The notes below the pieces were generated by a model. It had not been told where the DNA came from. It made no database searches and saw only the letters and a list, made by a program, of their open reading frames with translations. Shown here piece after piece: positions 171-55,816 of a DNA stretch of 64,000 bases. Source of the stretch: Saccharopolyspora shandongensis (GTDB taxonomy: Bacteria; Actinomycetota; Actinomycetes; Mycobacteriales; Pseudonocardiaceae); contig NZ_FNOK01000022.1 in the NCBI RefSeq assembly GCF_900106995.1, positions 1-64,000 of the forward strand, written 5' to 3'. The translations under genes were made by a program, and so were the position numbers. Position 1 is the stretch's first letter. Each line of letters opens with the position of its first letter.

Positions 171-214
171 CCGTGAGTGCTTTGTGTCGCCATGGCAGCA
201 CAAAACACTCACGG
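171..214. repeat. Family-1 palindrome, copy A
   Basis: A 44-bp palindrome with 16-bp arms (171-186 and 199-214, one mismatch) around the 12-nt centre TCGCCATGGCAG. It is one of six intergenic elements in this window with the same design. It lies between the convergent 3' ends of sodA and the MFS gene, so it may end transcription from both sides. Confidence 0.8.
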
Positions 215-259
215 CCCCACCACTCGGCGGTGAGTGCTCCGACAAGCCCACTGCCGAAA

Positions 260-291
260 CTTCGGGGCCTTCCTCCGGGAGGGCCCCGAAG
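260..291 (+). terminator. GC-rich hairpin downstream of sodA
   Basis: CTTCGGGGCC (260-269) pairs with GGCCCCGAAG (282-291), with further inner pairing of CCTCC and GGAGG. It is followed by TCCTTT. A second hairpin (CGGGCCCCGG at 316-325 with its complement at 340-349) follows directly. Together they look like tandem terminators for the sodA transcript. Confidence 0.7.
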
Positions 292-396
292 TCCTTTCCC
301 GGGCCCGAATACGACCGGGCCCCGGCCTCCCGCAGGAGACCGGGGCCCGATCTGTTCCCGAACTGACTACCGCTCCCACCACGAAGCGGACGGATT

Positions 397-415
397 TTAG
401 GTTAGCCTAACCTTT
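397..415. promoter_or_regulatory. Iron box (IdeR/DtxR-type operator) over the MFS stop codon
   Basis: TTAGGTTAGCCTAACCTTT matches 17 of 19 positions of the DtxR/IdeR/DmdR consensus TTAGGTTAGSCTAACCTAA and contains the perfect 7-1-7 palindrome AGGTTAG-C-CTAACCT. The unusual part is its place: it covers the TAG stop (407-409) of the MFS gene, between two convergent genes, with no start codon nearby. It is AT-rich in a GC-rich setting. Confidence 0.65.
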
Positions 416-1723
416 TGACTCGGGCAACCTCGTTCGCCGCCGCCAGGCCAGCACCGCGACGCCGCCGAGCGCGGCGGCCAGCGACGCCAGCCCACCCAGC
501 AAGATCGGCCAGCGCGGCCCGAGCACCTCGGCGAGCCACCCCGAAGCCAGCCCGCCCAGCGGTTTTCCGCCCAGGAACAGCAGCATGTAGAGGCCCATGA
601 CCCGGCCGCGCATGGTCGGCTCCACGGCCAGCTGGACGGTCGCGTTCGCGCTCGTGGTGAACGTCATCACAGCGATCCCGACCGGCACCAGCGACGCCGC
701 GAACAGCTCGTAGGTCGGCATCAGCGCCGCCACGGCCTCCAGCACGCCGAAAACGCCGGCGCCCAGCAGCATCAGCCGCAGCCTTGGCACCCCGCGGCCG
801 CTACGCCGGGCCGCCAGCGCTGCCCCGGTCAGCGTGCCGACCGCGAGCATGGTGATCAGCAGGCCGTAGCCGTCGGCGTCGCGCCCGAAGACGTTGCGCG
901 CGATCACGGCGAAGGAGCTCTCGAAGTTCATCCCGAACGTGCCGATGAAGAACACCAGCACCATCACGACGATCAGGTCCGGCCGCCCGCGCACGTAACG
1001 CAGCCCGGCGCGCAGCTGGCCGCGTTCCTTCGGCGGCGGCTTGGCCCGGTGCAGCGCCGACGCGTCCATCAGCGCCAGCCCGGCGACCACGGCGACCGAG
1101 CTCAACCCGTTGAGCAGGAACACCCAGCCGGTGCCGATCGCGGTGATCAGCACCCCAGCGATGGCCGGGCCGACGATGCGCGCCAGGTTGAACGTCATCG
1201 AGTTCAGCGCGACGGCGTTGGTGAGCTGCCGGGACCCGACCATCTCGACGACGAACGACTGCCGCACCGGCGCGTCGATCGCGGCGAAGCAGCCGAGCAC
1301 GAAGCACAGCAGGTAGACGTGCCAGAGCAGCACGACACCGGTGACGTCGAGCAGCCCCAGCACGAGACCGCAGACGCCGAGCGCACTTTGGGTGGCGACG
1401 AGCATGCGCCGCTTGTCGAATCGGTCGGCGATGACGCCCGCCCACAGCGTCAGCAGCAGGGTCGGGGCGAACTGCAGCGCGACCGCCACGCCCAGCGCGG
1501 CCGGGCTGCCGCCGGAGAGTTCCAGCACCAGCCAGTCCTGCGCGGCGCGCTGCATCCACGTGCCGGTCAGCGAAACGACCTGGCCGGAGGCGTAGTAGCG
1601 GTAGTTGCGCTCCCGCAGCGAGCGGAACATGCCGCCGGATCGGTCCGATGTGGACGGCGGTTCGTGGTTGGCCGGGTCCCCGCCCGGGTCGGTTCCCGTG
1701 CGTGCCGCGGATCGGTCAACCAC
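407..1723 (-). CDS. MFS transporter (MFS_3 / EntS-like drug or siderophore exporter)
   Basis: A 438-aa major facilitator protein with about 12 hydrophobic segments. After a disordered N-terminus (residues 1-30) comes MFRSLRERNYRYYASGQ, typical of the MFS_3 family (EntS enterobactin exporter, tetracycline/macrolide-efflux-like proteins), then LTGTWMQ and the inter-helix loop ADRFDKRRML after helix 2. Its role is likely proton-coupled export of a small molecule across the cytoplasmic membrane. It starts 32 bp downstream of the marR gene on the same strand, so the two form an operon and MarR probably represses the exporter. A start at the internal ATG (1630) is also possible because the first 30 residues are not typical of the family. 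An iron box covers its stop codon, which makes a siderophore substrate thinkable but unproven. Confidence 0.82.
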   Translation of the reverse strand: MVDRSAARTGTDPGGDPANHEPPSTSDRSGGMFRSLRERNYRYYASGQVVSLTGTWMQRAAQDWLVLELSGGSPAALGVAVALQFAPTLLLTLWAGVIADRFDKRRMLVATQSALGVCGLVLGLLDVTGVVLLWHVYLLCFVLGCFAAIDAPVRQSFVVEMVGSRQLTNAVALNSMTFNLARIVGPAIAGVLITAIGTGWVFLLNGLSSVAVVAGLALMDASALHRAKPPPKERGQLRAGLRYVRGRPDLIVVMVLVFFIGTFGMNFESSFAVIARNVFGRDADGYGLLITMLAVGTLTGAALAARRSGRGVPRLRLMLLGAGVFGVLEAVAALMPTYELFAASLVPVGIAVMTFTTSANATVQLAVEPTMRGRVMGLYMLLFLGGKPLGGLASGWLAEVLGPRWPILLGGLASLAAALGGVAVLAWRRRTRLPESKG

Positions 1724-1755
1724 GCTCGTGCGTACCGCCTCTCACCGGACTCCGG

Positions 1756-2190
1756 TCATCGGCCGGCCAACCGGTCGATGATCTCCGCCGCCTGGCACAG
1801 CACGCGGCGGTCTTCCTCGGACAGGTCCGCGAGCTGCTGGTCCAGCCAGCGCTCCCGGATCGAGACCTCTTCGTCTATGCGGGCCTGGCCCGCCTCGGTC
1901 AGTTCCACGATGGCCTGCCGGCCGTCGGTGGGGTGCGCCCGACGTGCGACCAGCCCGGCGTCTTCCAGGGCGGAGATCACCCTGGTCATCGACGGTGGCT
2001 GGACGCCTTCCCGGGCCGCCAGCTCGCCAGGCGTCAACGCGCCGGCCTTGTGCAGACAGGACAGCGCCGACAGCTGGGACAGCGTGATCTTCGAGTCGTT
2101 GCTCTGCGCGCGCAGCCGCCGGTTCAGGCGGACGACGGCGAGCCGCAGCCGACTCGCCAGGGTGCGCTCGCGCTCCGCGATATCGGACAC
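1756..2190 (-). CDS. MarR family transcriptional regulator
   Basis: 144 aa, the normal MarR size. The winged-helix core is visible: LSALSCLHKAGALTPGELA, then EGVQPPSMTRVISALEDAGL as recognition helix and the wing with RRAHPTDGRQ (D-x-R-x signature). MarR proteins bind short palindromes as dimers and usually lose DNA affinity on binding an aromatic ligand or on oxidation. The GTG start lies exactly 6 nt after a -10 hexamer, so the mRNA is probably leaderless. It is first in an operon with the MFS exporter. From memory it resembles M. tuberculosis Rv0880. The ligand is not predictable. Confidence 0.88.
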   Translation of the reverse strand: MSDIAERERTLASRLRLAVVRLNRRLRAQSNDSKITLSQLSALSCLHKAGALTPGELAAREGVQPPSMTRVISALEDAGLVARRAHPTDGRQAIVELTEAGQARIDEEVSIRERWLDQQLADLSEEDRRVLCQAAEIIDRLAGR

Positions 2191-2202
2191 GTCGTTAGTC
2201 TA
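2191..2202 (-). promoter_or_regulatory. Leaderless promoter of marR with possible MarR operator
   Basis: On the minus strand the -10 hexamer TAGACT (2202-2197) is followed by 6 nt and then the GTG start. Around it TAGTCTACCAAACTA forms a short dyad (TAGT...ACTA), a plausible autoregulatory MarR site overlapping the promoter. Confidence 0.5.
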
Positions 2203-2350
2203 CCAAACTATTTCGGGGAATCGGACAAACTGATCAAGCCTGATCAGTGGCCGTCCACCATAGCCAGCCGACGACCCCGCACCTGGAATCGCAACCCAAT
2301 CGACGCACTACTCCGAACGGCCCAAAGCCCTCGTCTCGCCCGGCCAGGCC

Positions 2351-2394
2351 CCGTGCGCACTTTGTGCTGCTCTGGCGACACAAAACGCGCACGG
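2351..2394. repeat. Family-1 palindrome, copy B
   Basis: Arms CCGTGCGCACTTTGTG (2351-2366) and CACAAAACGCGCACGG (2379-2394) pair with two mismatches around the 12-nt centre CTGCTCTGGCGA; GCC/GGC extends the stem by 3 bp. It lies just after the 3' end of the purine permease gene and upstream of marR. Confidence 0.78.
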
Positions 2395-2418
2395 GCAATC
2401 ACCTGCGCGAACGGCCGA

Positions 2419-3885
2419 TCAGATGCCGAAGAGGGCGTGCAGCGGGCCGGAGCAGAAGTAGAGCACGAACGCCGCCGACACGACCCACATCAGCGGGTGC
2501 ACGGTGCGGATGCGGCCGGTGAAGACCCGCAGCAGCACGTAGCTGATGAAGCCCGCGCCGATGCCGTTGGCGATCGAGTACGTGAACGGCATGACCACGA
2601 TCGTCAGGAACGCGGGCAGCGCGATGCTGAAGTCGGACAGGTCGATCTGCCGGATCTGGGTGAGCATCATCGCCCCGACCACCACCAGCGCCGGAGCCGC
2701 CGCCTCCACCGGGATGATCTGGTAGAGCGGCGTGAAGAACATCGCCGCCAGGAACAGCAGGCCGGTGATCACGTTCGCCAGGCCGGTGCGCGCTCCCTCC
2801 GCGATGCCGGACGCGGACTCTACGAACACGGTGTTGGAGCTCGCCGAACCCAGCCCGCCGGCGACCGCGCCGACGCCCTCGACGGCCAGCGCCTTGCCGA
2901 TGCCCGGCAGGTTGCCGTCCTTGTCGGCGAGCCCGCCCTCCTTGCCGAGGCCGGTCATGGTGCCCATGGCGTCGAAGAAGTTCGCCAGCACCAGCGTGAA
3001 CACCAGCATCGCGGCGGCCAGCGCCGGCAGCCGCGTCCAGGCGCCGAAGGAGACGTCGCCGACCAGCGACAGGTCGGGCAGGCCGATGACCTGCTCCGGC
3101 ACCGCCGGGTAGCCGAGGTTCCAGCCGTAGGGGTTGGTGCCCTTCGACGGGCCCGCGTGGAAGACCGACTCGATGATGATCGACAGCACCGTGGTGACGG
3201 CCACGCTGATCAGGATCGCGCCCCGCACCTTGCGCGCCACCAGCACCGAGGTGAGCACCAGCCCGAACACGAACACCGCGGTCGGCCAGGAGGCGATCGA
3301 GCCGTCGATGCCCAGCCCGACCGGCACCGTCGTGTTGGCCGCGTCCGGCAGGCGCCGCACGAATCCGGAGTCGACCAGGCCGACGAAGGTGATGAACACG
3401 CCGACGCCGACCGCGATCGCGGCCTTGAGCTCGGGTGGCACCGCGTTGAACACCGCGGTCCGGAACCCGGTGGCGACCAGGATCAGGATGATGATGCCGT
3501 CCACCACCACCAGGCCCATCGCCTCGGGCCAGGTGACCTGCGGCGCGATGGTCACGGCCAGCAGCGTGTTGATGCCGAGCCCGGCGGCGATCGCGAACGG
3601 GTAGTTGGCGATCAGTCCGAACAGGATCGTCATCACGCCCGCGACCAGCGCGGTGGTGGCCGCGACCTGCGAAACCGGCAGGATGTTGCCCAGCACGTCG
3701 CGCTTGGCACCGGCGTCCTCGGCGGAGGTGCTGCCGAGGATCAGCGGGTTCAGCACGATGATGTACGCCACGGTGACGAACGTGACCACGCCGCCGCGAA
3801 CTTCCCGCCCTATGCTGGACCCGCGATCGGTGATCTTGAAATACCTGTCCAGCAGCGACTTCTTGGAAACGTCTCGATCCACCAT
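2419..3885 (-). CDS. NCS2-family purine permease (AzgA-type)
   Basis: 488 aa starting MVDRDVSKKSLLDRYF, with GGGAAG as ribosome-binding site. The N-terminus (RYFKITDRGSSIGREVRGG) and the segments VTFVTVAYIIVLNPLIL and FAIAAGLGINTLLAVTIAP are hallmarks of the AzgA branch of the NCS2 (nucleobase-ascorbate) transporters, which take up hypoxanthine, guanine and adenine with protons. The usual 14 membrane segments fit the length, and the conserved LVxANFFDAMGTMTGLG stretch is present. Divergent from the DUF2530 gene with 60 bp between. The open frame extends upstream to 4725, but that part is antisense noise: it has no hydrophobic pattern and covers two other genes. Confidence 0.9.
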   Translation of the reverse strand: MVDRDVSKKSLLDRYFKITDRGSSIGREVRGGVVTFVTVAYIIVLNPLILGSTSAEDAGAKRDVLGNILPVSQVAATTALVAGVMTILFGLIANYPFAIAAGLGINTLLAVTIAPQVTWPEAMGLVVVDGIIILILVATGFRTAVFNAVPPELKAAIAVGVGVFITFVGLVDSGFVRRLPDAANTTVPVGLGIDGSIASWPTAVFVFGLVLTSVLVARKVRGAILISVAVTTVLSIIIESVFHAGPSKGTNPYGWNLGYPAVPEQVIGLPDLSLVGDVSFGAWTRLPALAAAMLVFTLVLANFFDAMGTMTGLGKEGGLADKDGNLPGIGKALAVEGVGAVAGGLGSASSNTVFVESASGIAEGARTGLANVITGLLFLAAMFFTPLYQIIPVEAAAPALVVVGAMMLTQIRQIDLSDFSIALPAFLTIVVMPFTYSIANGIGAGFISYVLLRVFTGRIRTVHPLMWVVSAAFVLYFCSGPLHALFGI

Positions 3886-3945
3886 CAGTACTTCCCGATC
3901 ACCGCGCCTGCGCGCGCGTTCATTACCGGGAGTAGCCTGCCTGAC

Positions 3946-4233
3946 GTGGCACAGGACAGCGAATCCACCCCCTCGGCGCCGGGTCACCGGCCGGTCCCGC
4001 CGCTGCCGCGGAGGCTGGCGGACCCCACCCCGGTGGTGCTGTTCGGCACGGCCCTGTGGTTCGCCGGCGTAGTCCTGTTCGGCATCCGCGACTGGGCCGG
4101 CATCCAGTTCTGGACCTGCCTGGCCGGGGGCGTGCTCGGCATCATCGGCTACGGCGTGTTCCGCTGGCAGCGCTCGGCGGCGCGCCGCGGTTCCCGGGGC
4201 GCCTGGAAAGGCCTGTCCGGACTCGACGGCTGA
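3946..4233 (+). CDS. DUF2530 small membrane protein
   Basis: 95 aa with a GTG start. A proline-rich N-terminus (PPLPRRLADPTPVV) is followed by two membrane helices, residues about 30-47 and 53-72, and a basic C-terminal tail (RWQRSAARRGSRG). This is the layout of the DUF2530 family of actinobacteria, whose role is unknown. The start is supported by a -10 hexamer TAGCCT (3933-3938) ending 7 nt before GTG. Divergent from the purine permease. Confidence 0.75.
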   Translation: MAQDSESTPSAPGHRPVPPLPRRLADPTPVVLFGTALWFAGVVLFGIRDWAGIQFWTCLAGGVLGIIGYGVFRWQRSAARRGSRGAWKGLSGLDG

Positions 4234-4326
4234 GCCTGCCCGATTCTGCTCCGAACAGCCCCGCGCCCAGTTAGTCTGCACAGTCGACATCAAGTTCCGA
4301 TGCCCTAACGCGGGAGCGCAGCACCA

Positions 4327-5115
4327 GTGCCCAAGCTCGACGTCGACCGACTCGAATTCGCGATCCTGGCCGAACGCGCCGATCTCAGCCGGATCCCGAT
4401 GATCGCGTCGTACAGCAACTACGGGACGACCGTGAAAGACATGCCTCGCGAATTCGAGGCGGCGGAGCAGCGGGTCCGCGATCGCGGCCTGATCAACCCG
4501 AGCGGCGTGAACGACCGGGTCATGGAGCTGCTCGGCATCTACGCGCACGTGACGGTCGAGTACGACCTGCGGTTCTCCTCGCAGAAGGGCAGCGAACTGC
4601 GCGCCGCGGTGTCGAAGGCGAACAAGACGGCGGTACGCACGGTCGTCGACGGTGACCGGATCATCCTGGAGCCGGTGCATCCGAACGAACTGATCCCGTC
4701 GCTGGTGTCGGTGCTCCCGGAACACCCGCCGGCCCGCATCCGACCGGCGCTGAGCGTGGACCTCGCGGAGATGCGCGCGGCCATGGCCGACGTGCGCCGC
4801 CGCGGGGACGAAGACCCGCAGGCGATCGAGCAGAGCCTGCGAGCTCGCGGCGTGAACGTGGCGAGCTTCCGGAAGATGACGCAGTTGCTCGAAGGCCCGC
4901 GGCTGGGCCTCGGCGAGGCGGGCGTCACGATCTGGGACGACCGCCGCCGCGAGCGCCGGGGAGACCAGACGCTGCGGATCATCGACCTGCAGCAGGGCCG
5001 CACGGCGGTCTACAACAGCGGCACCCAGCGGATGTTCGCGGGGGCGGACATGAGCACGTTCACCCGGGTGCTCGGGGAGCTGACGACGAAGACCCAGCGC
5101 GAAGCGGCCTGGTAG
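4327..5115 (+). CDS. EspG family ESX secretion chaperone
   Basis: 262 aa. The order of elements (short N-terminal strand, the strand pair RAAVSKANKTAVRTVVDGDRI, LIPSLVSVLPEHPPAR, helical bundle RARGVNVASFRKMTQLLEG, C-terminal sheet) fits EspG proteins. These are cytosolic chaperones that bind the tip of PPE proteins in PE-PPE pairs before type VII secretion. The GTG start has GGGAG 8 nt upstream. Directly followed, in the same direction, by a PE-like, a DUF3558 and a PPE-like gene. No ESX core gene (EccB, EccC, EccD, MycP) is present in the window, so the machine must lie elsewhere. Confidence 0.8.
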   Translation: MPKLDVDRLEFAILAERADLSRIPMIASYSNYGTTVKDMPREFEAAEQRVRDRGLINPSGVNDRVMELLGIYAHVTVEYDLRFSSQKGSELRAAVSKANKTAVRTVVDGDRIILEPVHPNELIPSLVSVLPEHPPARIRPALSVDLAEMRAAMADVRRRGDEDPQAIEQSLRARGVNVASFRKMTQLLEGPRLGLGEAGVTIWDDRRRERRGDQTLRIIDLQQGRTAVYNSGTQRMFAGADMSTFTRVLGELTTKTQREAAW

Positions 5116-5268
5116 CGACCAACGTCACTCCGCCAAAGGGACTAATCCGGCAACGAGTTGGGAACCGATCCGCGCGAAGCATCGTCACACCTGTGCACGA
5201 ACGGGCAACGACCTGGCAAGCTAAGCGCGACGTGTACCTGTTTCAGGGGACAAAGGGGGTAGTGAAAG

Positions 5269-5682
5269 GTGTCATTCTTCGACGGTGTCGCCAACACGGT
5301 GGTCACCATGGGACAGAAGGCCGTGCGGTCGGCGACGATCCACACCGCGATCAACTCGGGCGGCTCTGCGCAGTCAGCGTCGTTCACTGTCGACATCGAG
5401 CAGATTCCGGGCCTGATCACCGAGTACCAGAAGGCCCAGGACAAGCTCGGCGAAATCCTGTTGGCCGCGCAGCAGCTGAAGAAGATCGCGCCGCCCGGCG
5501 ATGATGAGGTCAGCCAGCGGCTGTCCGATGCGCTTGGGGAAATGGCCGGCGAGAACGAAGGCTGCCTCTCCTGGGCCGTTAACGACGCGCGCGCTCGCAT
5601 CCAGACGCAGATCGACCAGTTGAAGGCTGCGCAGGGCGGCTACCAGGCCACCGACGAAAACGCTTCGATCCGCCAGGTTTAA
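5269..5682 (+). CDS. PE-like ESX substrate with YxxxD signal
   Basis: 137 aa, GTG start behind GTGAAAG. The central part (FTVDIEQIPGLITEYQKAQD...APPGDDEVS) is the helical hairpin typical of actinobacterial PE-like proteins. The C-terminus carries Y125-Q-A-T-D129, a match to the YxxxD/E type VII secretion signal placed just after the second long helix, as in EsxB and PE proteins. It lies 12 bp before the DUF3558 gene and in the same operon as a PPE-like gene, its likely partner. There is no WxG in the turn. Confidence 0.7.
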   Translation: MSFFDGVANTVVTMGQKAVRSATIHTAINSGGSAQSASFTVDIEQIPGLITEYQKAQDKLGEILLAAQQLKKIAPPGDDEVSQRLSDALGEMAGENEGCLSWAVNDARARIQTQIDQLKAAQGGYQATDENASIRQV

Positions 5683-9557: not shown

Positions 9558-9603
9558 CTCGTGAGTGGTTTGGATTGCTCTAGCACTCCAAACCACTCAC
9601 GAG
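9558..9603. repeat. Family-1 palindrome, copy E
   Basis: Perfect 17-bp arms (CTCGTGAGTGGTTTGGA at 9558-9574, complement at 9587-9603) around the centre TTGCTCTAGCAC. The arms differ from copies A-D but stay fully complementary, the pattern expected if base pairing is selected. Confidence 0.82.
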
Positions 9604-9606: not shown

Positions 9607-9885
9607 CTACGTGCGCAGGTGATGCCGCCCGGTCGGCTCATCGGGGTCGGCGGTGGGGAATCCCGGTGGTATGCGGGGATGTTCGCGCTCCGCCCCGCCC
9701 TCGTCTTGTCGGGTTTCGGCTTCGACGTCGGCGATGAGATGCCAGACCGTGTAAGCACCTTCGCCGCCTCCGGCGTGCTGCCCTGTTGTCGCGAACGCGA
9801 TGGCTCGTGCGGGGATCTGGGTGGTGAGCATGGCGAGGATCAGCAAGTTGAACAGGACGAACGTGCTGAGCTGAATCCAGAACAT
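9607..9885 (-). CDS. Small single-pass membrane protein (hypothetical)
   Basis: 92 aa from an ATG preceded by GGAAGGA. Residues 2-25 (FWIQLSTFVLFNLLILAML) form one membrane helix; the rest is polar and charged. Not recognised. It lies between two small Cys-motif genes on the same strand, just downstream of a long inverted repeat. Confidence 0.45.
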   Translation of the reverse strand: MFWIQLSTFVLFNLLILAMLTTQIPARAIAFATTGQHAGGGEGAYTVWHLIADVEAETRQDEGGAEREHPRIPPGFPTADPDEPTGRHHLRT

Positions 9886-9931
9886 GACGAGGGGTTTCCT
9901 TCCGTGATGCGGAGGTTGGGTTTCGGGTTGT

Positions 9932-9996
9932 CCGATTTTGCCTAAAATTGGGGACCTCTCCGCGGCACGGAACTTTCCAATTTTAGGCAAAATCGG
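9932..9996. repeat. Perfect 20-bp AT-rich inverted repeat
   Basis: CCGATTTTGCCTAAAATTGG (9932-9951) is exactly complementary to 9977-9996, with a 25-nt loop. It is strikingly AT-rich for this genome. It sits between two small genes on the minus strand and could be a terminator, an mRNA stabiliser or a protein-binding site. Confidence 0.75.
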
Positions 9997-10012
9997 GAGC
10001 CCTCCTGACCGG

Positions 10013-10225
10013 TCAGGGGTGGGTGGTGAGGACGTGCCAGCAGCGCATGCAGGTGTCCTCGCGGACCCAGTCCACTTCGGAACGATCGTGCAGCTCCGCT
10101 GCGTCCGCTTCCGCTCCGCAGAACGCCACCACCGGCACACCCGCAGGGGTTTTCGTTGCCGTGATCGGGAAAGCGTGGCGGCCTCCCGTGACCGGGCGCC
10201 AGACGTAGGTCAAGTAGTCGGACAC
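10013..10225 (-). CDS. Small CxxC protein
   Basis: 70 aa from a GTG start 5 nt after AAAGGAGG, the best ribosome-binding site of this area and the reason for choosing this start over the longer frame. Sequence VSDYLTYVWRPVTGGRHAFP, then a lone Cys (AFCGAE) and a CMRC pair with a following His: a likely small zinc-binding fold. Divergent from the XRE regulator with 116 bp between, so perhaps under its control. Function unknown. Confidence 0.6.
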   Translation of the reverse strand: MSDYLTYVWRPVTGGRHAFPITATKTPAGVPVVAFCGAEADAAELHDRSEVDWVREDTCMRCWHVLTTHP

Positions 10226-27928: not shown

Positions 27929-27996
27929 CAGGTCAGGGCCCGTGCACGTTTCGTGTCGCCATGGCAGCACAACGCACGCACGGTCCCTGACCTGGC
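27929..27996. repeat. Family-1 palindrome, copy C (extended arms)
   Basis: Core 27940-27983 has the centre TCGCCATGGCAG as in copy A. The arms extend outward with CCAGGTCAGGG (left) and CCCTGACCTGG (right), giving a stem of about 28 bp with a few mismatches. It lies between phzF and yccF. Confidence 0.78.
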
Positions 27997-31500: not shown

Positions 31501-31530
31501 CGTCCGCAGTTTCAATTGAAACTGCGGACG
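31501..31530. repeat. Perfect 30-bp palindrome between modA and modB
   Basis: 15-bp arms (CGTCCGCAGTTTCAA and its exact complement) with no loop, in the 66-bp gap between modA and modB. The 14-bp centre GTTTCAATTGAAAC is repeated at 31469-31482 inside the modB start region, so mutually exclusive pairings are possible. It may adjust modB expression relative to modA. Confidence 0.85.
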
Positions 31531-34744: not shown

Positions 34745-34962
34745 TGTCGCTCCTCGGTCGGCCCCGAACCGATCAGCAAGGAGCGGAAGCTCGCAGCGCC
34801 GAACCCTGTCCGGCGGGCTTCCAGACCCCGAAACGAAAAAACCGGACAGGGGCGGGGGACCCAACACCCGGGCTCCCCGAAGCCCTAGGGGTGAAGCCGG
34901 CTCCCCCGAGCCGGCCGGGCTGCCTCTCAGCCCGAACCCGACAGCTGACCTCGCAGGCGCGG
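34745..34962 (+). promoter_or_regulatory. Cyclic di-AMP riboswitch (ydaO-yuaA class)
   Basis: The 3' part has the signature of this class: GGGGTGAAGCCGG, then CCCGAACCCGACAGCTGACC followed by TCGCAGGCG (34931-34959). The 5' part begins with CGCTCCT pairing with AGGAGCG. It ends 15 nt before the rpfA start. In S. coelicolor a c-di-AMP riboswitch of this class controls rpfA; ligand binding lowers expression. Limits are approximate. Confidence 0.85.
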
Positions 34963-34976
34963 CAGGAGAGAGGAAC

Positions 34977-37437: not shown

Positions 37438-37453
37438 CGAGGCCGCGGGGCGG

Positions 37454-37514
37454 CGATTTCGCGCGAAATCGGCGTCCTCGTGAGGGCTGGGCGGCGATTT
37501 CGCGCGAAATCGCC
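37454..37514. repeat. Family-3 palindromes (two copies)
   Basis: CGATTTCGCGCGAAATCG (37454-37471) and a 22-bp perfect palindrome with the same core (37493-37514), in the gap after tetR. The shared centre is TTTCGCGCGAAA. Three more copies are at 63333-63434. Confidence 0.78.
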
Positions 37515-37600: not shown

Positions 37601-37665
37601 GGCAGGTGTCGTGAGCGGGTTGGGGTGCTCTGGCGCCCCAAAGCGCTCACGGGCGTTCACCTGCC
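37601..37665. repeat. Family-1 palindrome, copy F (extended arms)
   Basis: Outer arms GGCAGGTG (37601-37608) and CACCTGCC (37658-37665) enclose GTGAGCGGGTTGGGG and CCCCAAAGCGCTCAC around the centre TGCTCTGGCG. It lies between the convergent tetR and mogA-moaE genes and probably ends both transcripts. Confidence 0.75.
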
Positions 37666-37673: not shown

Positions 37674-38588
37674 TCAGGGGCAGTTGACCCATTCTTCGGT
37701 GTTGTCCTCGAAGACCTGGCGCTTCCAGATCGGCAGCCGCCTCTTCACCTCGTCGACCAGCTCCGAACAGGCGCTGAACGCTTGCTTGCGGTGCTCCGCC
37801 GCCACCGCGCAGCCGAGCGCCACGTCGCCGATCTTGAGCAGGCCGATCCGGTGCGACACCGCGACGGCGCGCACTCCTTCGAAGCGCGCCGCGATGTCCT
37901 GGGCCACCTCGGCGATCACGTCGGACGCGCTGGGGTGCCCGACGTACTCCAGCTCGCGGACGCCGCGCCCGCCGTCGTGGTCGCGGACCACCCCGCCGAA
38001 GGTCACCACGGCGCCCGCCGCCCGGTGCTCCACCGACCTGGCCAGGTCGTCGACGTCGATCACCTGCTCGGTCACGTCGGCCCGCAGGACCTCCGCCGCC
38101 GCCCGGTTCGGCGCGGCGTGGTCGCCGCCGTGCAGCTGGTCGACGGCGTGGTCCAGGACCCCGTCCAGCACGCCGAGCCCGTCCTTGACGCCGCCGCGCG
38201 AGCCCGGCAGGTTCACGATCAGCGTCCGGCCGCTGACGCCGGCCAGCCCGCGGGAGAGCACCGCCGTCGGGACCTCCGGCAAGCCCGCCGAGCGGATCGC
38301 CTCCGCCAGTCCCGGAATCGGGTAGTCCAGGACCGCCGCCGTGACCTCGGGCGTGCGGTCGGTCGGGCTGATCCCGGTGCCGCCGGTGGTGATCACGACG
38401 TCCGCGCCGGCGGCGACCGCCCGGCGCAGCTCCTCGCCCACCGGGTCGCCGTCCGGCACCACGACGGGGTCCGGCACCTCGTAGCCGCGCCCGCGCAACC
38501 ACTCGACGATCACCGGGCCGGTGCGGTCGGGGTAGACGCCGGCCGAAGCGCGGTTGGACGCGGCGATCACTCGCGCTGTCCTCGTCAT
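37674..38588 (-). CDS. MogA-MoaE fusion: molybdopterin adenylyltransferase / molybdopterin synthase large subunit
   Basis: 304 aa as one open frame. Residues 1-165 are a MogA/MoaB domain (AASNRASAGVYPDRTGPVIV, ITTGGTGISPTDRTPE, IVNLPGSRGGVKDGL), which adenylates molybdopterin. Residues about 167-304 are MoaE (GAVVTFGGVVRDHDGGRGV, VSHRIGLLKIGDVALGCAV, EHRKQAFSACSELVDEVKRR, PIWKRQ with the catalytic lysines), which makes molybdopterin together with MoaD. ATG behind AGGAGG. M. tuberculosis has separate mog and moaE2 genes side by side in this region, so this looks like a fusion of those neighbours. Two successive-but-one steps of one pathway are thus joined in one chain. Confidence 0.92.
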   Translation of the reverse strand: MTRTARVIAASNRASAGVYPDRTGPVIVEWLRGRGYEVPDPVVVPDGDPVGEELRRAVAAGADVVITTGGTGISPTDRTPEVTAAVLDYPIPGLAEAIRSAGLPEVPTAVLSRGLAGVSGRTLIVNLPGSRGGVKDGLGVLDGVLDHAVDQLHGGDHAAPNRAAAEVLRADVTEQVIDVDDLARSVEHRAAGAVVTFGGVVRDHDGGRGVRELEYVGHPSASDVIAEVAQDIAARFEGVRAVAVSHRIGLLKIGDVALGCAVAAEHRKQAFSACSELVDEVKRRLPIWKRQVFEDNTEEWVNCP

Positions 38589-44707: not shown

Positions 44708-44786
44708 CAGCACGCCGAAAGCTCCGAGGCCAGAACTCGCGAGAACTCGTTCCGCGCACTGGTTCGCCCCCGCTGGCTGACGTGAG

Positions 44787-44978
44787 GTGAACGGCCCGTT
44801 CGCCTCGATAGGAGAGGTGAACGGCCCGTTCACCTCATCCGCCCGAGGCCGGTGGACACCGTTGGAGTTGAGGCGAACGGCCTGTTCGTCTCGATAGGCG
44901 AGGCGAACAGGCCGTTGACTCCACCGTCCGGAAGGCGCCGCCGCCCTACGGCGACCCCACTTGACGACATCCCGAACA
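44787..44978. repeat. Composite family-2 repeat (four hairpins plus TGTTCGGGATGT block)
   Basis: Four 17-bp palindromes of the GTGAACGGCCCGTTCAC type at 44787-44803, 44817-44833, 44873-44889 and 44903-44919, the last two slightly degraded. Pairs are joined by CTCGATAGG(A/C)GAG. A 36-bp block at 44943-44978 matches 29 of 36 positions of 16907-16942 in reverse orientation. It fills the gap between the PPOX gene and the conservon. Confidence 0.78.
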
Positions 44979-45018
44979 GCCTCAGCCGCAGTCCAAGACG
45001 CTCACGAGCGCTGCGAGA

Positions 45019-50396: not shown

Positions 50397-50425
50397 TTGT
50401 CGGGCTTAGTTCAACGTTCTACAGT
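50397..50425 (+). promoter_or_regulatory. Promoter of the first binding-protein gene
   Basis: TTGTCG (50397-50402), 17-nt spacer, TACAGT (50420-50425): a good housekeeping-type promoter. The same hexamers and spacing recur at 51904-51932 ahead of the second binding protein, with a matching upstream stretch (CTAGTTACGCCC here, CTAATTACACC there). Confidence 0.72.
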
Positions 50426-50660
50426 TCATGGGCACCCGCACCCCGCCACAGCCCGGGAGACGTAAAACTTCGCACAAGGGCCGAAACACCCCCGGCGCAC
50501 GCGACCGGCGGGGCTCGCCCGATTCGTGGCTCAGTCCACTGTGCACCTGCGCTCCTCCCGGACTTCTCGAGGGGTGAACTTCGCGCCGTCTCGGCAAAGC
50601 TGCGCCACCGACACCGCCGCAGCCGCCGCTCCACGTCGCACCCAATGCAAGGAGGAACAG

Positions 50661-51680
50661 ATGAGCCCCGCCCTCGCCCACCGCTCCCTGCCACGCAGGA
50701 GTCTGCTGAAGCTCGCTGGCGGCGCCGTCACCGCTGGTGCGCTGCTGGGCACGAGCGGCTGCGGACTCCTCGGTGGATCGCAGGCGGAAAGCGGCGGAAA
50801 CGGGCTGGTGGAAAAGGCGAACCTCCGCGTCGGCGCCCTGCCGATCAACGACCTCGCCCCGCTGCACCTGGCCGTCCGCAACGGCTACTTCCAGCAGGAG
50901 GGCCTGACGGTCGAGATCGTCACCGCCCCGGACGGCAGCGCCGCGCTGAACAGCACCATCGGCGGCGACTACGACATCACCTACAGCAGCTACGTACCGT
51001 TCTTCCAGGCGCAAGCCAAGGGCATCGCGGACCTGAAGATCGTCGCGGACTGCGCGTCGGCCACGTCGAACACGACCATGATCATGACCTCGCCGGGCTC
51101 CAAGGTCCACCTGCCGCAGGACCTGGCGGGCAAGAAGATCGCGATCAGCGGCCCGAACACCATCACCGAGCTGCTGGTCAAGGCCACCATGCACGCCCAC
51201 GGCGTGGACTACAGCAAGGTGCAGCTGGCGCCGATCCCGTTCATCAACATGCCCGCCGCGCTGCAGCAGGGCCAGGTCGACGCCGCCATCGTCACCGAGC
51301 CCTTCCTCACCCTGGCCGCCCGCAACAGCGGCGCCGTGCCGGTGGTGGACACCGCCACCGGTCCGCTGGAGGACCTGCCGCTGACCGGCTACGGGGCGAC
51401 CGCGAAGTTCTGCCAGGAGAACCCGAAGACCGTCGCGGCGTTCCAGCGTGCCTTGGACCGCGCCGTCGCCGAGGCGCAGGACCGCAGCAAGATCGAGCCG
51501 CTGCTGCCGGAATTCGCCAAGATCGACAGGGACACCGCGGCGATCATCACGCTGCTGAAGTTCAACTCGCGCGCCGACGCCACCCGCCTGCAGCGGGTGC
51601 CGCGCCTGATGAAGGATTTCGGCTTCATCACCGCCGACCTGGACGTCGCCAGCATGATCGCGACGCCGCCGCAGGCCTGA
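50661..51680 (+). CDS. ABC transporter substrate-binding lipoprotein 1 (NrtA/SsuA/TauA-like)
   Basis: 339 aa, ATG behind AAGGAGG. Twin-arginine-type signal with lipobox (PRRSLLKLAGG...LLGTSGCG). The mature part is an NMT1/OpuAC-type binding fold: LRVGALPINDLAPLHLAVRN, GYFQQEGLTVEIVTAPDG, STIGGDYDITYSSYVPFFQA, QVDAAIVTEPFLTLAA, and TGYGATAKFCQENPKTVAAF. Families of this fold bind nitrate, sulfonates, taurine or pyrimidine precursors; which one here is not readable. About 235 nt of leader lie between its promoter and ATG. Closely similar to the next gene. Confidence 0.88.
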   Translation: MSPALAHRSLPRRSLLKLAGGAVTAGALLGTSGCGLLGGSQAESGGNGLVEKANLRVGALPINDLAPLHLAVRNGYFQQEGLTVEIVTAPDGSAALNSTIGGDYDITYSSYVPFFQAQAKGIADLKIVADCASATSNTTMIMTSPGSKVHLPQDLAGKKIAISGPNTITELLVKATMHAHGVDYSKVQLAPIPFINMPAALQQGQVDAAIVTEPFLTLAARNSGAVPVVDTATGPLEDLPLTGYGATAKFCQENPKTVAAFQRALDRAVAEAQDRSKIEPLLPEFAKIDRDTAAIITLLKFNSRADATRLQRVPRLMKDFGFITADLDVASMIATPPQA

Positions 51681-51903
51681 CGTTCTCGCTGGTCCCGCCG
51701 CCGCGAGCGGCTCGGATCGCCGCGGCGGTCCGGAACGCTCGCGCCCGGCGGGCTCGCCGTTGGTCCAGACGACATTTCTCGTTCGCTCGAATTGCCCAGC
51801 GCTATTCAGCTCACCGTCACAATTCGCCGCCGGCCATGACCTGAGTGGCGTGAATCACCCAGCGCATGTGAGTGACTCGCGACAACGAGCTAATTACACC
51901 TGG

Positions 51904-51932
51904 TTGTCGCATGTGATCCGACCTTCTACAGT
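51904..51932 (+). promoter_or_regulatory. Promoter of the second binding-protein gene (duplicate)
   Basis: TTGTCG (51904-51909), 17-nt spacer, TACAGT (51927-51932), then a downstream stretch (GACCCGCCACCGCACCGGGAGA) resembling that after the first promoter (CACCCCGCCACAGCCCGGGAGA). The leader is about 239 nt, nearly equal to the first. The region 51681-51903 upstream shows nothing else recognised. Confidence 0.72.
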
Positions 51933-52171
51933 TCGGGAACCAAGACCCGCCACCGCACCGGGAGAAACGACGCACCGCCGCCGGGACGCGGCACCACCGT
52001 GCCCGGAGTCGTTGCTCACCAGCACTTCCTCCCGGGTCACCATCGCGACGAGACCGGCCACCCCGCACCAGAAACACCCCGTGGCAACGGAATCGACGCC
52101 GACCCGTACCGCTCCCGGCGCAGGGCACAACGGAACACCGCGCACCGCACCCCGATGCCAGGAGGATCCAG

Positions 52172-53185
52172 ATGAGTCCCCTTCCCCGCGCCCTTCCACG
52201 CCGCAACCTGTTGAAACTCGCCGGCGGGATGGTCACGGCAGGCGCCCTGATGGGCACCAGCGGTTGCGGACTCCTGGGCGGTTCAGAGGAGCAGAAGGGC
52301 GGCAACGCGCAGGTGGAGAAGGCGCACCTGCGGATCGGCGGGCTGCCCACCAGCGAACTCGCGCCGCTGCACCTGGCGGCGAAGAACGGCCACTTCCAGC
52401 GGGAGGGCCTCACCGTCGAGATCATCAACGCGCCCGACGGCGCCACCGCGCTGAACAGCACCATCGGCGGCGACTACGACATCACCTTCAGCAGCTACGT
52501 GCCCATCTTCGCCGCCCAGGCCAAGGGCATCGCACAGCTGAAGATCGTCGCGGACTGCGCGTCGAGCAATCCGAACACCTGCATGATCATGGCGTCGCCG
52601 GAGTCCAGCGTCCGCACGCCGCAGGACCTGGCCGACAAGCGGATCGCGATCAGCGGCAGCGGCACCATCTCCGAACTCCTGGTCAAGGCATCGATGAAGG
52701 CCAACGGCGTGGACTACGACGGCGTCCAGTGGATGCCGCTGGGGTTCATCAACATGCCCAACGCGCTGCGCACCAACCAGGTCGACGCGGCGTTCGTGGT
52801 CGAGCCGTTCCTGACGCTGTCCGCCCGCGACGCGGGCGCCGTCCCGGTGGTGGACACCGTCACCGGGCCGCTGGAGGACCTGCCGCTGGGCGGCTACGTG
52901 TCGGCGGCCAAGTTCGCCGAGGAGAACCCCAAGACCGTGGCGGCGTTCCAGCGCGCCATGGACTCCGCCGTCACCGAGGCGCAGGACCGCAGCAAGATCG
53001 AACCGCTGCTGCCCGAATTCGCCAAGATCGACAAGGAGACTGCGGCGATCATCACGCTGCTGAAGATGAATTCCCGCGCCGACGCCACCCGCTTGCAGCG
53101 CATTCCGCGGCTGATGCTGGAATTCGGTTACATCGACAAGGAAATCGACGTGGCGAGCATGATCTTCGCGCCGCCGCAGAGCTGA
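52172..53185 (+). CDS. ABC transporter substrate-binding lipoprotein 2 (paralogue)
   Basis: 337 aa, ATG behind AGGAGG. Same design as the preceding gene: signal PRRNLLKLAGG with lipobox (GTSGCGLLGGS), LRIGGLPTSELAPLHLAAKN, GHFQREGLTVEIINAPDGAT, STIGGDYDITFSSYVPIFAA, QVDAAFVVEPFLTLSARDAG, PLEDLPLGGYVSAAKFAEEN. Clearly a tandem duplicate that has diverged, perhaps to widen the substrate range. The permease gene starts 10 bp after its stop, so this copy is in the same operon as the transporter; copy 1 may be transcribed apart. Confidence 0.88.
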   Translation: MSPLPRALPRRNLLKLAGGMVTAGALMGTSGCGLLGGSEEQKGGNAQVEKAHLRIGGLPTSELAPLHLAAKNGHFQREGLTVEIINAPDGATALNSTIGGDYDITFSSYVPIFAAQAKGIAQLKIVADCASSNPNTCMIMASPESSVRTPQDLADKRIAISGSGTISELLVKASMKANGVDYDGVQWMPLGFINMPNALRTNQVDAAFVVEPFLTLSARDAGAVPVVDTVTGPLEDLPLGGYVSAAKFAEENPKTVAAFQRAMDSAVTEAQDRSKIEPLLPEFAKIDKETAAIITLLKMNSRADATRLQRIPRLMLEFGYIDKEIDVASMIFAPPQS

Positions 53186-53195
53186 ACTCGGGGAA

Positions 53196-53963
53196 ATGAC
53201 GAAAACACTCCGGGGATTGGTCGGCCTGGTGGGCTTCCTGATTCTGTGGGAAGCCTTCAGCCGGTCCGAAATCGTCCCCCAGCAATACTTTCCGCCACCG
53301 TCCACAGTGCTCGCCCAGTTCGCCGAACTGCTCGGCGATAGCGGCTTCCTCCTCGACCTGATCGCCACCGTGCTGGCCTGGGCGATCGCGCTGGGCATCT
53401 CCATCGCCATCGCGGTGCCCGCCGGGCTGCTGCTCGGCAGCGTGCGCTGGATCCGGGTCGCGACCCGGGCGATCATCGAGTTCCTCCGGCCGATCCCGTC
53501 GGTGGCGCTGATCCCGCTGGCGATCGTGCTGGTCGGCGCGGGGCCGGAAACCAAGATCACGCTCGCGGTCTACGCCGCGGTGTGGCCGATCCTGTTCAAC
53601 ACCATCTACGCGTTGGACGAGATCGACCCGGTGATGGTGGACACCGCGCGCTCCTTCGGGCTGGGCCGGGGCCGGATCATGTTCACGGTGGCGCTGCCGA
53701 ACGCGGCGCCGTTCGTGCTCACCGGCATCCGGATGTCCGCCGCGGTGGCGCTGATCCTGGTGGTCAGCACCGAGTTCCTGGCCGGCGGCGGCAGCGGCCT
53801 CGGCAGCTTCGTGCTCGACGCGAGCACCGGCGCCGGGCGGATGGACCTGGTGCTGGCCGGGACGCTGGTGGCGGGGATCGTCGGCTACCTCATCAACGAG
53901 GTGCTGGAACAGGTGCACAAGCGCGGCCTCCGGTGGAGCGCGGTCGATCGGGAGGCGGCGTGA
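53196..53963 (+). CDS. ABC transporter permease 1 (SsuC/NrtB/TauC-like)
   Basis: 255 aa, ATG behind GGGGAA. Six membrane helices; the EAA loop VDTARSFGLGRGRIMFTVAL, PNAAPFVLTGIRMSAAVALI and the N-terminal FLILWEAFSRSEIVPQQYFPPP are those of binding-protein-dependent permeases for nitrate/sulfonate/taurine. Its stop overlaps the start of the second permease (GTGA), so the two probably form a heterodimer, whereas SsuC-type systems normally use one permease gene. Confidence 0.9.
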   Translation: MTKTLRGLVGLVGFLILWEAFSRSEIVPQQYFPPPSTVLAQFAELLGDSGFLLDLIATVLAWAIALGISIAIAVPAGLLLGSVRWIRVATRAIIEFLRPIPSVALIPLAIVLVGAGPETKITLAVYAAVWPILFNTIYALDEIDPVMVDTARSFGLGRGRIMFTVALPNAAPFVLTGIRMSAAVALILVVSTEFLAGGGSGLGSFVLDASTGAGRMDLVLAGTLVAGIVGYLINEVLEQVHKRGLRWSAVDREAA

Positions 53964-54760
53964 TCAAGATGCGCGGATTCCTGCAGCGCTGGGTGGTGTT
54001 CATCGGCGCGATCGTGGCCTGGGAGCTGCTCACCCGCGCCGCGCAGAGCCCGTTCTTCCCGACCCCGACCACGATCGTCGGCACGGCCGCGGAGAAGTGG
54101 TTCAGCGGGCCGGCGTCGTCGCTGTTCCTGACCGACGAGGCGTTCTCCGACCTGCTGGCCAGCCTCGGGCGGATCGCCGCGGGCTGGGTCATCGCCGTGG
54201 TGCTCGGCGTCGCGCTGGGCACCCTGCTCGGCCGCTCCCGCACCGCGCTGGACTACTTCGGGCCGCTGATGGCGTTCATGCGGGCCATCCCGCCGCCCGT
54301 GCTGGTGCCGGTCTTCCTGGTGCTGCTGGGCATCGGCACGCAGATGCAGATCACCGTGATCGTCTTCGGCGTGATGTGGCCGATCCTGCTGAACACCGTC
54401 GACGGGGTCCGCTCCGTCGACCAGGTCAAGGTGGACACCGCCCGCTCGTTCCGCATCCCGCGCGCGCACTGGATCTTCGGCGTGGTGCTGCCCGCGGCGA
54501 CGCCGAAGATCTTCGCCGGGCTGCGGGTGAGCCTGTCGCTGGCGCTGGTGCTGATGGTCGTCTCCGAGCTAGTCGGCTCCACCAACGGCATCGGCTACCG
54601 GCTGATGTTCGACCAGCGGCAGTTCGACTTCCCCGCGATGTGGGCGGGCATCGTGCTCCTGGGCATCCTCGGATACCTGCTCAACACCCTGCTGCTCGTG
54701 GTGGAGCGCCGCGCGCTGAGCTGGCAACCCTCGCAGGCGCACCAAGTAGTCGGAGGCTGA
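53960..54760 (+). CDS. ABC transporter permease 2
   Basis: 266 aa from a GTG (behind GGGAGGCGG) overlapping the first permease stop by 4 bp. Six helices with the EAA loop VDTARSFRIPRAHWIFGVVL and PAATPKIFAGLRVSLSLALV; N-terminus VVFIGAIVAWELLTRAAQSP, FFPTPTTIVGTA. About one third identical by eye to permease 1 in conserved parts. ATPase gene follows 6 bp later. Confidence 0.9.
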   Translation: MIKMRGFLQRWVVFIGAIVAWELLTRAAQSPFFPTPTTIVGTAAEKWFSGPASSLFLTDEAFSDLLASLGRIAAGWVIAVVLGVALGTLLGRSRTALDYFGPLMAFMRAIPPPVLVPVFLVLLGIGTQMQITVIVFGVMWPILLNTVDGVRSVDQVKVDTARSFRIPRAHWIFGVVLPAATPKIFAGLRVSLSLALVLMVVSELVGSTNGIGYRLMFDQRQFDFPAMWAGIVLLGILGYLLNTLLLVVERRALSWQPSQAHQVVGG

Positions 54761-54766
54761 ACTTCC

Positions 54767-55666
54767 ATGACTGAAACCAAGATCATGCTCGACGTCTCCG
54801 CGCTCGGGCACCGCTACGGCGGCGCAAACGGCCACCAGGCCATCGCCGACCTGACGTTCCAGGTGCGCACCGGCGAACTCGCCTGCATCGTCGGCCCGTC
54901 CGGTTGCGGCAAGTCCACCATGCTGCGCTCCATCTCCGGCCTGATCAAGCCGACCACCGGCGACGTCAAGCTGGGCGGCAACCCGGTGAACGGCGTGCCG
55001 GAGGACCTGGCCGTCGTGTTCCAGGACTACAGCCGGTCGCTGTTCCCCTGGCTGTCGGTGCGGTCCAACGTCGAGTTCCCGCTTCGCTCCAGGGGTTTGA
55101 GCAAGGCGGAGCGGCGCAGCCGGGCCGACGAGGTGCTCGAATGGGTCGGCCTGAGCGCGGCGGCCAAGAAGTACCCGTGGCAGCTCTCCGGCGGCATGCA
55201 GCAGCGCGTGTCGATCGCCCGGGCGCTGGCCTGCCGGCCGGCGCTGCTGCTGATGGACGAGCCGTTCGCCTCGGTGGACGCCCAGACCCGCTTCGAGCTG
55301 GAAGACCTGCTGCTGCGGGTCCGCAAGCAGTTCGACAGCACGGTCCTGCTGGTCACCCACGACATCGACGAGAGCATCTACCTGGCGGACCGGGTCTTCG
55401 TGCTCTCGAAGTCCCCGGCGTCGATCGTGGCGGACCTGGAGATCCCGCTCGGCGACGAGCGCGACCAGATCACGACCCGCGAGTCGGAGACGTTCGTCCA
55501 CCTCCGCAGCGAGGTGGCCCGCCTCCTCGACGTCCGCAGCGCCCACGCCCCGGCGAAGGACGACGCCGCCCCGGCGGAGTCCGATGTGGACAACGCGGAG
55601 TCCACCGCGAAGCAGTGGGCCGAGGCGGAGAAGGCGGAGGCCGCGAAGGCCGACGCCCGCAACTGA
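54767..55666 (+). CDS. ABC transporter ATP-binding protein (SsuB/NrtD-like)
   Basis: 299 aa. Walker A VGPSGCGKSTMLRSI, Q-loop VFQDYSRSLFPWLSV, signature QLSGGMQQRVSIARAL, Walker B LLLMDEPFASVDAQ, switch VTHDIDES. The order ISGLIKPTTGDVKLGG and FPWLSV is typical for nitrate/sulfonate/taurine importers. The C-terminal 55 residues are an acidic/Ala-rich helical tail (ESTAKQWAEAEKAEAAKADA) not normal for the family. Last gene of the importer operon. Confidence 0.92.
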   Translation: MTETKIMLDVSALGHRYGGANGHQAIADLTFQVRTGELACIVGPSGCGKSTMLRSISGLIKPTTGDVKLGGNPVNGVPEDLAVVFQDYSRSLFPWLSVRSNVEFPLRSRGLSKAERRSRADEVLEWVGLSAAAKKYPWQLSGGMQQRVSIARALACRPALLLMDEPFASVDAQTRFELEDLLLRVRKQFDSTVLLVTHDIDESIYLADRVFVLSKSPASIVADLEIPLGDERDQITTRESETFVHLRSEVARLLDVRSAHAPAKDDAAPAESDVDNAESTAKQWAEAEKAEAAKADARN

Positions 55667-55770
55667 CGCAGCACGCGCGGAAAGGCGCCTCCCGCCGATC
55701 GATTCGGCCGGGGGCGCCCTTCGCGTTCACCCGCCGGTCCGATGTGGACCGGTGGTTCCGCTGGCCATGG

Positions 55771-55816
55771 CCCGTGTGCACTTTGTGTTGCTATAGCAGC
55801 ACAAAGTGCACACGGG
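55771..55816. repeat. Family-1 palindrome, copy D
   Basis: Perfect 17-bp arms (CCCGTGTGCACTTTGTG at 55771-55787, complement at 55800-55816) around TTGCTATAGCAG. It lies between the convergent ABC ATPase and decarboxylase genes; a second GC hairpin (55684-55730) precedes it. Confidence 0.82.

Follow-up and report, generated by a model that had tools for sequence, protein, structure and literature searches.

A dispersed REP-like palindromic repeat of Pseudonocardiaceae, probably kept at the 3' ends of genes

Folded-strand recombination sites, for example integron attC, have constant ends and a variable interior which keeps its pairing. The classes of REPs, or palindromic units, described in the accessible parts of two sources carry a one-sided GTAG or CGTC tag, and one of the classes has a dedicated transposase (PMC3733652, PMC2817692). 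REPs also serve as targets of insertion sequences, according to the accessible part of another source (PMC1525189). For Streptomyces clavuligerus, the part consulted of a further paper describes U-less (I-shaped) terminators, or structured 3' ends that are poor in U (PMC8269248).

The palindromes of the window and their common hairpin

The window is the whole stretch of 64,000 nucleotides of Saccharopolyspora shandongensis that was analysed. The initial annotation reported six palindromes in it, and all of them are real and found in place (171-214, 2351-2394, 9558-9603, 27929-27996, 37601-37665 and 55771-55816). They have in common an ungapped 42-nt core whose arms are paired as reported, whereas the longer arms given for 27929-27996 and 37601-37665 extend beyond it. 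The core at 172-213 is of subtype A (CACAAA arms) with the centre TCGCCATGGCAG, and has 14 of its 15 arm pairs Watson-Crick, a recognisable left outer arm (13/16) and a decayed right one. Likewise of subtype A are the core at 2352-2393 (13/15 pairs), whose centre lies 46 nt from the 3' end of a permease gene (2419-3885, minus strand), the core at 27941-27982 (10/15), where both outer arms are recognisable (12/16 and 12/16) and give the longer palindrome 27929-27996, and the core at 55773-55814 (15/15), flanked by convergent ABC-transporter and TPP-enzyme genes. Subtype B (CTCGTGAG...TTTGGA) is represented at 9560-9601 (15/15), and a B-like form (GGTTGGGG arms) at 37610-37651 (13/15) precedes the 3' end of a MoaE-domain gene (37674-38570, minus strand). 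Placement just after 3' ends is supported for five copies by neighbours with Pfam matches, but the gene adjoining the copy at 9558-9603 is uncertain, the nearest ORF (9607-10140, minus strand) having no Pfam match and being left out by the gene caller. A probable broken copy on the minus strand (44988-45006; 19.2 bits, a weak match) consists of a 19-nt part of one arm and GC, followed by GAGGCTGTTCGG-type sequence as beside other interrupted copies. An Rfam scan of the window at gathering score matched a c-di-AMP riboswitch alone and no known RNA family on the hairpin.

Within the six cores 89.8% of the cells pair, and six pairs differ on both sides. Their covariation score (0.285 versus 0.145 when shuffled) is reached in 1 of 500 shuffles, and slid structures give a lower one. 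With six rows only, neither the pairs with two-sided change nor the further pair types rise above chance (57 and 209 of 500 shuffles, respectively, reach the values).

The hairpin measures 42 nt. Its foot is a constant outer stem of 8 bp, which in the common form reads CGTGAGTG; above it come a paired inner stem of about 9 bp that is largely free in sequence, a G-C pair that hardly varies, a short Y-R pair and finally a 4-nt loop. The mean folding energy of the 42-mer is -27.2 kcal/mol (103 copies). A pattern in which the outer 8 bp alone were fixed and the length was free gave exactly 42 nt at 42 of 49 places with different inner arms, and the element lengths in genomes G074 and G036 are hand counts among the matches listed (50 places and 21, respectively). 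The nearly fixed 12-nt centre of the initial annotation is accordingly the mark of one subfamily only.

Arm pairing, whose loss in additional copies had been named beforehand as counter-evidence, is kept in further copies. Among 85 distinct sequences the variable pairs 5, 7, 8, 9, 14 and 15 are 80-99% paired, each above all 500 shuffles, and among 68 sequences from ten genomes the inner pairs 9-17 are 82-91% paired versus 28-47%; shuffle significance is overstated for both sets because their members are related. The 68 are distinct plus-strand rows among the matches listed, leaving out G074, the own genome and most duplicates, and a few of them are each other's reverse complements. For 28 own cores of the CGTGAGTG form, collapsed by strand, every inner pair from 9 to 17 except pair 16 outdoes all 500 shuffles. 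Subtype A has, in addition, outer arms in the form of a 16-nt inverted repeat exactly 19 nt beyond the core edge (25/30 on the left, 21/25 on the right). These decay while the core arms remain paired, and they have no pairing excess of the kind seen in the core.

Genomic placement and comparison between species

A profile search of 1.264 Mb of the own genome gave 33 copies above 40 bits and, with the same profile, no match even above 8 bits in the reversed sequence; hence, chance is excluded as the origin of the copies. Pattern matches number 137 genome-wide. Placement inside genes had been named beforehand as the finding that would speak against the element, and all 33 copies are intergenic, while one of 103 in an enlarged set lies inside a predicted gene, the genes being called with a codon-usage script that missed some. 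Only the 1.264 Mb were chosen independently of the pattern; a pattern hit was the ground for including another 40 own stretches and those of G074. Convergent gene pairs host 19 of the 33 copies, yet hold 17% of the intergenic bases, and in G074, which belongs to another genus, 15 of 20 copies lie between convergent genes. Among co-directional own copies the upstream stop is closer than the next start in 34 of 36, and across four genomes the median distance from stop codon to core is 21 nt, for 94 of the 99 intergenic copies.

The restriction to a lineage proposed earlier is borne out. The CGTGAGTG-type form was found in 85 of 249 genomes of Pseudonocardiaceae, which belong to 18 of 46 genera when the own genome is counted; leaving the own genome aside, none of 295 sampled from the phylum has it. 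Sampled genomes of the family have up to 443 copies, with patchy numbers that go from 0 to hundreds inside one genus. A strict 46-nt pattern, too stringent for survey use, matched three stretches among named genomes, all of S. elongata, and viral contigs gave no exact match to the pattern.

Between the own genome and its closest relative, seven of eight two-sided changes that keep a pair are concentrated in two of the 15 orthologous copies compared, a set without low-scoring profile matches; in both, a different subtype seems to have replaced the copy as a block. Another 20 changes are one-sided, making or breaking a pair, and have been tolerated. Subtype block swaps with largely common flanks are also seen at loci C127:293610 and C58:69510, and C49:165198 in genome G006 keeps its register with a different centre. 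Since the two arms are at times exchanged together between close species, stepwise compensation alone does not account for the covariation. The earlier interpretation stands in its paired arms, in the intergenic position just after 3' ends and in the lineage restriction, but its argument from compensatory change to a structure that matters was too simple.

Orthologous 3' ends vary in what they carry. The one at the core 55773-55814 has the core in G002, G004, G011 and G013 as well, and in G014 with another interior. In G017 the core is present at 18 of 27 orthologous 3' ends (16 by profile, plus C49:165198, which overlaps the stop, and C58:7392, which has the other centre). Several of the same 3' ends in relatives carry other hairpins; seven of the nine ends without core in G017 do so, a share not clearly above that of convergent sides there in general (39/74), and functional replacement was rejected as proof. 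Relatives of G074 have places free of the element, but the flank junctions are too unclean to define a unit or a duplication.

Competing explanations for the repeat

The explanation favoured here, with moderate confidence, is a dispersed REP-like palindromic repeat of Pseudonocardiaceae that is probably maintained behind genes in the role of a U-less terminator or a block to exonucleases. Copies would spread or homogenise as DNA and would be retained where they are transcribed into RNA hairpins at the 3' ends of transcripts. Between convergent genes the hairpin could act from both sides, as a U-less terminator or as a barrier to 3'-5' exonucleases. Support comes from the intergenic and convergent bias, the proximity to stop codons, the kept core pairing, the outer arms without a pairing excess, the folding energy and the other hairpins that relatives have at several of these 3' ends, and the placement of the predicted hairpin fits a U-less terminator or 3'-end hairpin. 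An intrinsic terminator with a U-tract is not what is seen, at least 3 U within the next 8 nt being present at 11 of 115 3' sides. The excess of G.U over A.C on the sense strand is suggestive only: the own co-directional copies give 21:11 (p=0.11; 10 versus 7 by copy), and a four-genome pool gives 49:22 (24 versus 12 per copy, p=0.065) but includes orthologues, as did an earlier pooled count of 40:18. Against this reading, besides the merely suggestive G.U excess, the scarcity of U-rich 3' sides and the unremarkable share of other hairpins in G017, block replacement makes the kept pairing explicable without selection, and many orthologous 3' ends of relatives lack both the core and any other strong hairpin.

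It is possible, though rather unlikely, that the repeat is a selfish or neutral REP-like DNA element which spreads and is tolerated behind genes as the least harmful site. Its arms would then be matched not through a use of RNA pairing but because intact copies overwrite others by gene conversion, which a break in the palindrome may set off, or because of template switching within the palindrome. The block swaps, the changed centre in unchanged register, the tolerance of one-sided changes (20 versus 8) and the patchy copy number are all in line with this. The very tight link to stop codons, even among co-directional copies, is not, nor is the failure of that palindrome's outer arms to stay paired, which an older age of these arms could explain. 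Block-wise exchange of inner stems would also follow from a putative enzyme of Pseudonocardiaceae that recognises the folded strand by its 8-bp foot, loop and fixed length, regardless of the inner stem, and copies or overwrites the hairpin; such an enzyme is considered improbable.

A duplex site bound by a dimeric or tetrameric protein, involved in chromosome organisation, supercoiling or a transcription roadblock, would have its contacts in the 8-bp ends and the centre, 42 bp being four helical turns. Constant ends, fixed length and a centre constant inside a subfamily agree with such a site, as does the indifference of the central asymmetry to transcription (7 C.A versus 6 T.G in co-directional copies), which also rules out orienting the element by it. 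Such a site is nevertheless very unlikely, as inner bases without contact are complementary without need, the free but paired inner arms are not explained by it alone, and the centre is wholly different between subfamilies. Least credible is a MITE or RAYT-type REP whose ends are read by a known kind of transposase, through terminal inverted repeats with target duplication or through Y1 acting on the folded strand. The outer repeat of subtype A does look as if an 80-bp unit was once copied whole, but the outer arms are limited to that subtype and absent from 20 copies of G074, and among 24 copies retaining both outer arms none showed a target-site duplication. The ends, CGTG...CACG on both sides, lack the GTAG tag and do not place the repeat among GTAG- or CGTC-class REPs. 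Matches to Y1 (PF01797) were found in 9 of 26 genomes searched, the own among them with 5 matches, and none in seven element-bearing genomes (G002, G004, G013, G034, G036, G057 and G074), which speaks against RAYT-driven mobility.

Breakage and likeness to known systems

Broken copies peak at the centre, where several hold insertion sequences. Breaks after positions 23-25 account for 15 of 47 broken copies, while a reversed control gave 5 copies and none at 23-25. The centre is a recurrent insertion point whether the repeat serves transcripts or is selfish. If copies end or protect transcripts, they offer a ready-made set of bidirectional 3'-end elements, whose hundreds of variants amount to a natural experiment; if they are purely selfish, they would spread without the usual transposase; and if shape and length are read by an enzyme, the repeat would be a REP-like system without RAYT.

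Among the matches listed, titles and abstract openings gave no paper naming the 42-nt element. It resembles integron attC in its constant ends and variable paired interior and differs in its fixed length. Unlike for attC, we know of no integrase linked to it. Strong GC-rich hairpins right after a gene, with a U-poor tail, are shared with the U-less terminators of Streptomyces clavuligerus; as far as the part consulted describes them, those are individual hairpins, whereas here there is one repeat family, seen at the sequence level, of fixed length and constant ends (PMC8269248). Like REPs that are insertion-sequence targets in the accessible part of their source, the palindrome receives IS110-type and DDE elements, but it is interrupted mostly at the loop, short MITE-like inserts also occur, and a serine-recombinase gene adjoins one junction (PMC1525189). 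As short high-copy palindromes outside genes, the repeats agree with REPs in general, and, with the GTAG and CGTC classes as the available parts present them, they share extragenic position beside genes and several subfamilies per genome. They differ from these in their 42-nt length, the 8-bp constant foot on both sides, the sequence-free inner stem and several rich genomes without Y1 transposase (PMC3733652, PMC2817692), and look like a new variety of REPs.

The 42-nt hairpin unit

The six palindromes of the window were found at the places and in the form given by the initial annotation, which had described them as covarying intergenic elements with a nearly fixed 12-nt centre and had suggested a terminator/RNA-stability element or a protein-binding site. 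Their 42-nt cores align without gaps; by pair count, 89.8% of the cells are paired, and six pairs have changed on both sides. The covariation score of the six cores was equalled by 1 of 500 shuffles and exceeds all slid controls; two of five covariation measures were no higher than chance with six rows. A profile search of 1.264 Mb of the Saccharopolyspora shandongensis genome (the window plus four contig stretches) returned 33 copies above 40 bits, and the reversed sequence gave zero matches, even above 8 bits. By extrapolation, about 265 copies would be expected in 10.15 Mb, and a stricter pattern applied to the whole genome has 137 forward matches with 0 in the control.

Among 85 distinct sequences of the profile-found family in this genome, pairs 1-4, 6, 10-13, 18 and 19 show almost no sequence variation, and pairs 5, 7, 8, 9, 14 and 15 are variable yet complementary (80-99% Watson-Crick), the pairing at each of them exceeding that of 500/500 shuffles; Watson-Crick pairing at 16-27 reaches just 34%. 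Likewise, in 68 sequences typed from ten family genomes bearing the fixed 42-nt pattern, inner pairs 9-17 are 82-91% paired versus 28-47% when shuffled, all four pair types are common at several of these pairs, and G18-C25 is almost constant. When only CGTGAGTG and its complement were required and the total length was left free from 30 to 56, the total length came to exactly 42 nt at 42 of 49 places in the S. shandongensis genome. A subfamily with a second centre, CCGGTAAGAACCGG, has the same 42-nt frame with very unlike inner arms. On the basis of the constant and variable pairs and the length counts, the unit consists of a constant 8-bp foot, a largely free, paired inner stem, a near-constant G-C pair and a 4-nt loop. 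A 30-nt palindrome, GGTCGTGAGCGC...GCGCTCACGACC, at window positions 58345-58374 has the foot of the 42-mer but is shorter.

Subtype A, the form with CACAAA arms, carries an additional inverted repeat, GTTTCCGCTGGTCAGG. Among arms scoring at least 12/16, its distance outward from the core edge is exactly 19 nt in 25 of 30 on the left and 21 of 25 on the right. Both outer arms are recognisable in 34 of 103 copies, and in these their columns pair no better than shuffled ones, save at the position next to the core; the outer arms decay independently and core pairing is retained. In G074, a genome of another genus, 20 copies have no such arms, and the conserved stretch reaches just one or two bases past the core.

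Gene ends and insertions into the core

All 33 copies are intergenic in sequence that is 81% predicted coding, and 19 lie between convergent genes, in gaps that make up 17% of intergenic bases. The enlarged set of 103 copies from the same genome comprises 56 convergent, 36 co-directional and 8 divergent copies, 1 in a predicted gene and 2 at a stretch end; the upstream stop is closer than the next start in 34/36 co-directional cases. In four genomes taken together, a 3' end adjoins 94 of 99 intergenic copies, with a median stop-to-core distance of 21 nt, and 15/20 copies in G074 are convergent. A bias towards 3' ends is general among strong palindromes of the S. shandongensis genome, which occur on 150/260 convergent sides, on 112/414 3' versus 71/414 5' co-directional sides, and on 19/410 divergent sides.

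Other palindrome families, GATTTCGCGCGAAATC, GTTTCAATTGAAAC and GTGAACGGCCCGTTCAC, lie near gene ends in the window (37452-37514, 31501-31530, 44783-44837, 44876-44916) and recur elsewhere in the genome; in relatives, hairpins of these kinds stand at 3' ends where S. shandongensis bears the 42-mer. One stretch of another genome (L246, G587) has a truncated and an almost complete 42-mer in succession behind one gene. The window also holds a c-di-AMP (ydaO/yuaA) riboswitch at 34816-34975 (+), which reaches the Rfam gathering score with 55.7 bits.

Broken copies peak at the centre, with 15 of 47 broken after profile positions 23-25; the reversed sequence yields 5 broken copies, 0 of them there. 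Both core halves flank a DDE transposase gene (PF13701) at two places in the genome G006 (~1.7 kb each) and an IS110-type gene in the same genome (~1.7 kb). Similarly, short MITE-like inserts of ~220-245 bp with ends AGAGCYTGTT... sit inside 42-mer centres (C127:152686-152970 in S. shandongensis; stretches L161 and L154 in genome G017), two of them apparently with an AT duplication. Near 9.6 kb on the minus strand of stretch L116 in genome G013, a large serine-recombinase reading frame starts beside a 42-mer centre, as though an integrating element had used that centre as its attachment site. REPs, dispersed extragenic palindromes, are targets of several insertion-sequence families according to PMC1525189, and such targeting matches the breakage of 42-mers here.

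History and possible role

At 18 of 27 orthologous 3' ends, G017, the closest of 16 compared genomes over one 2.6-kb locus (94%), has a core of one subtype or another, whether whole or worn; cores occur at 6/21 in G006 and 5/24 in G013, with a sixth visible in the sequence at C49:165198. The window copy at 55773 is old: the corresponding 3' end bears a core in G002, G004, G011 and G013 and a 42-mer with a different interior in G014; G005 and G006 have half copies, and G017 appears to have lost it by deletion. Over 15 cores orthologous between S. shandongensis and G017, 20 one-sided pair-making or pair-breaking changes stand against 8 two-sided pair-keeping ones, 7 of which fall in two loci where subtype A lies opposite subtype B with largely shared flanks. 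At C49:165198, where the stop codon of the gene lies within the foot, subtype B is found in S. shandongensis and G017, and the other centre, in unchanged register, in G006. One complete core can thus take the place of another at a given site. Related species of genus g16 differ at matching 3' ends, where some have the element, some a hairpin of another kind, and some lack both.

The most likely site of action of the hairpin is the end of the transcript, where, as RNA, it would either terminate transcription in the U-less manner or shield the message from exonucleases. The excess of G.U over A.C that such a role would leave on the sense strand is suggestive at best: G.U:A.C pairs number 21:11 in co-directional copies of S. 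shandongensis (p=0.11) and 20:21 in convergent ones; pooled over four genomes, orthologues included, they number 49:22 (24 versus 12 when counted by copy, p=0.065), and 23:29 in the pooled convergent copies. A U-rich tail follows at only 11 of 115 3' sides, and therefore a canonical U-tract terminator is not supported. Structured, U-poor 3' ends have been mapped as a class in Streptomyces clavuligerus, according to PMC8269248. A selfish repeat whose pairing is maintained by copying is a serious rival to this RNA role, since cores are replaced as blocks and many 3' ends manage without one.

Spread and kinship with known REPs

The fixed 42-nt pattern occurs in 85 of 249 sampled Pseudonocardiaceae genomes and in 18 of 46 sampled genera, S. 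shandongensis included in both counts, with up to 443 matches per genome and 0 in the reversed control among the matches listed; S. shandongensis apart, it is found in 0/295 genomes of the phylum sample. By hand count, the length matches at 50/50 places listed of the 196 in G074 and at 14/21 places listed in G036. In Saccharopolyspora elongata 7K502, three stretches match a strict form of the pattern.

The transposase that usually accompanies REPs did not come to light: no match to PF01797 turned up in G002, G004, G013, G034, G036, G057 or G074. No target duplication was seen in 24 copies with both outer arms. G006 has 19 matches to this Y1 transposase and many interrupted 42-mers; its pattern matches number 51, versus 146 in G002 and 130 in G013, both with zero Y1. 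Among the literature matches listed, as far as their text was available, no description of the 42-nt repeat was found. The known GTAG/CGTC and RAYT-associated classes have defining features that, as far as tested, the 42-nt repeat does not share; it is a REP in the general, broad sense, which by the features tested stands outside both of these classes.
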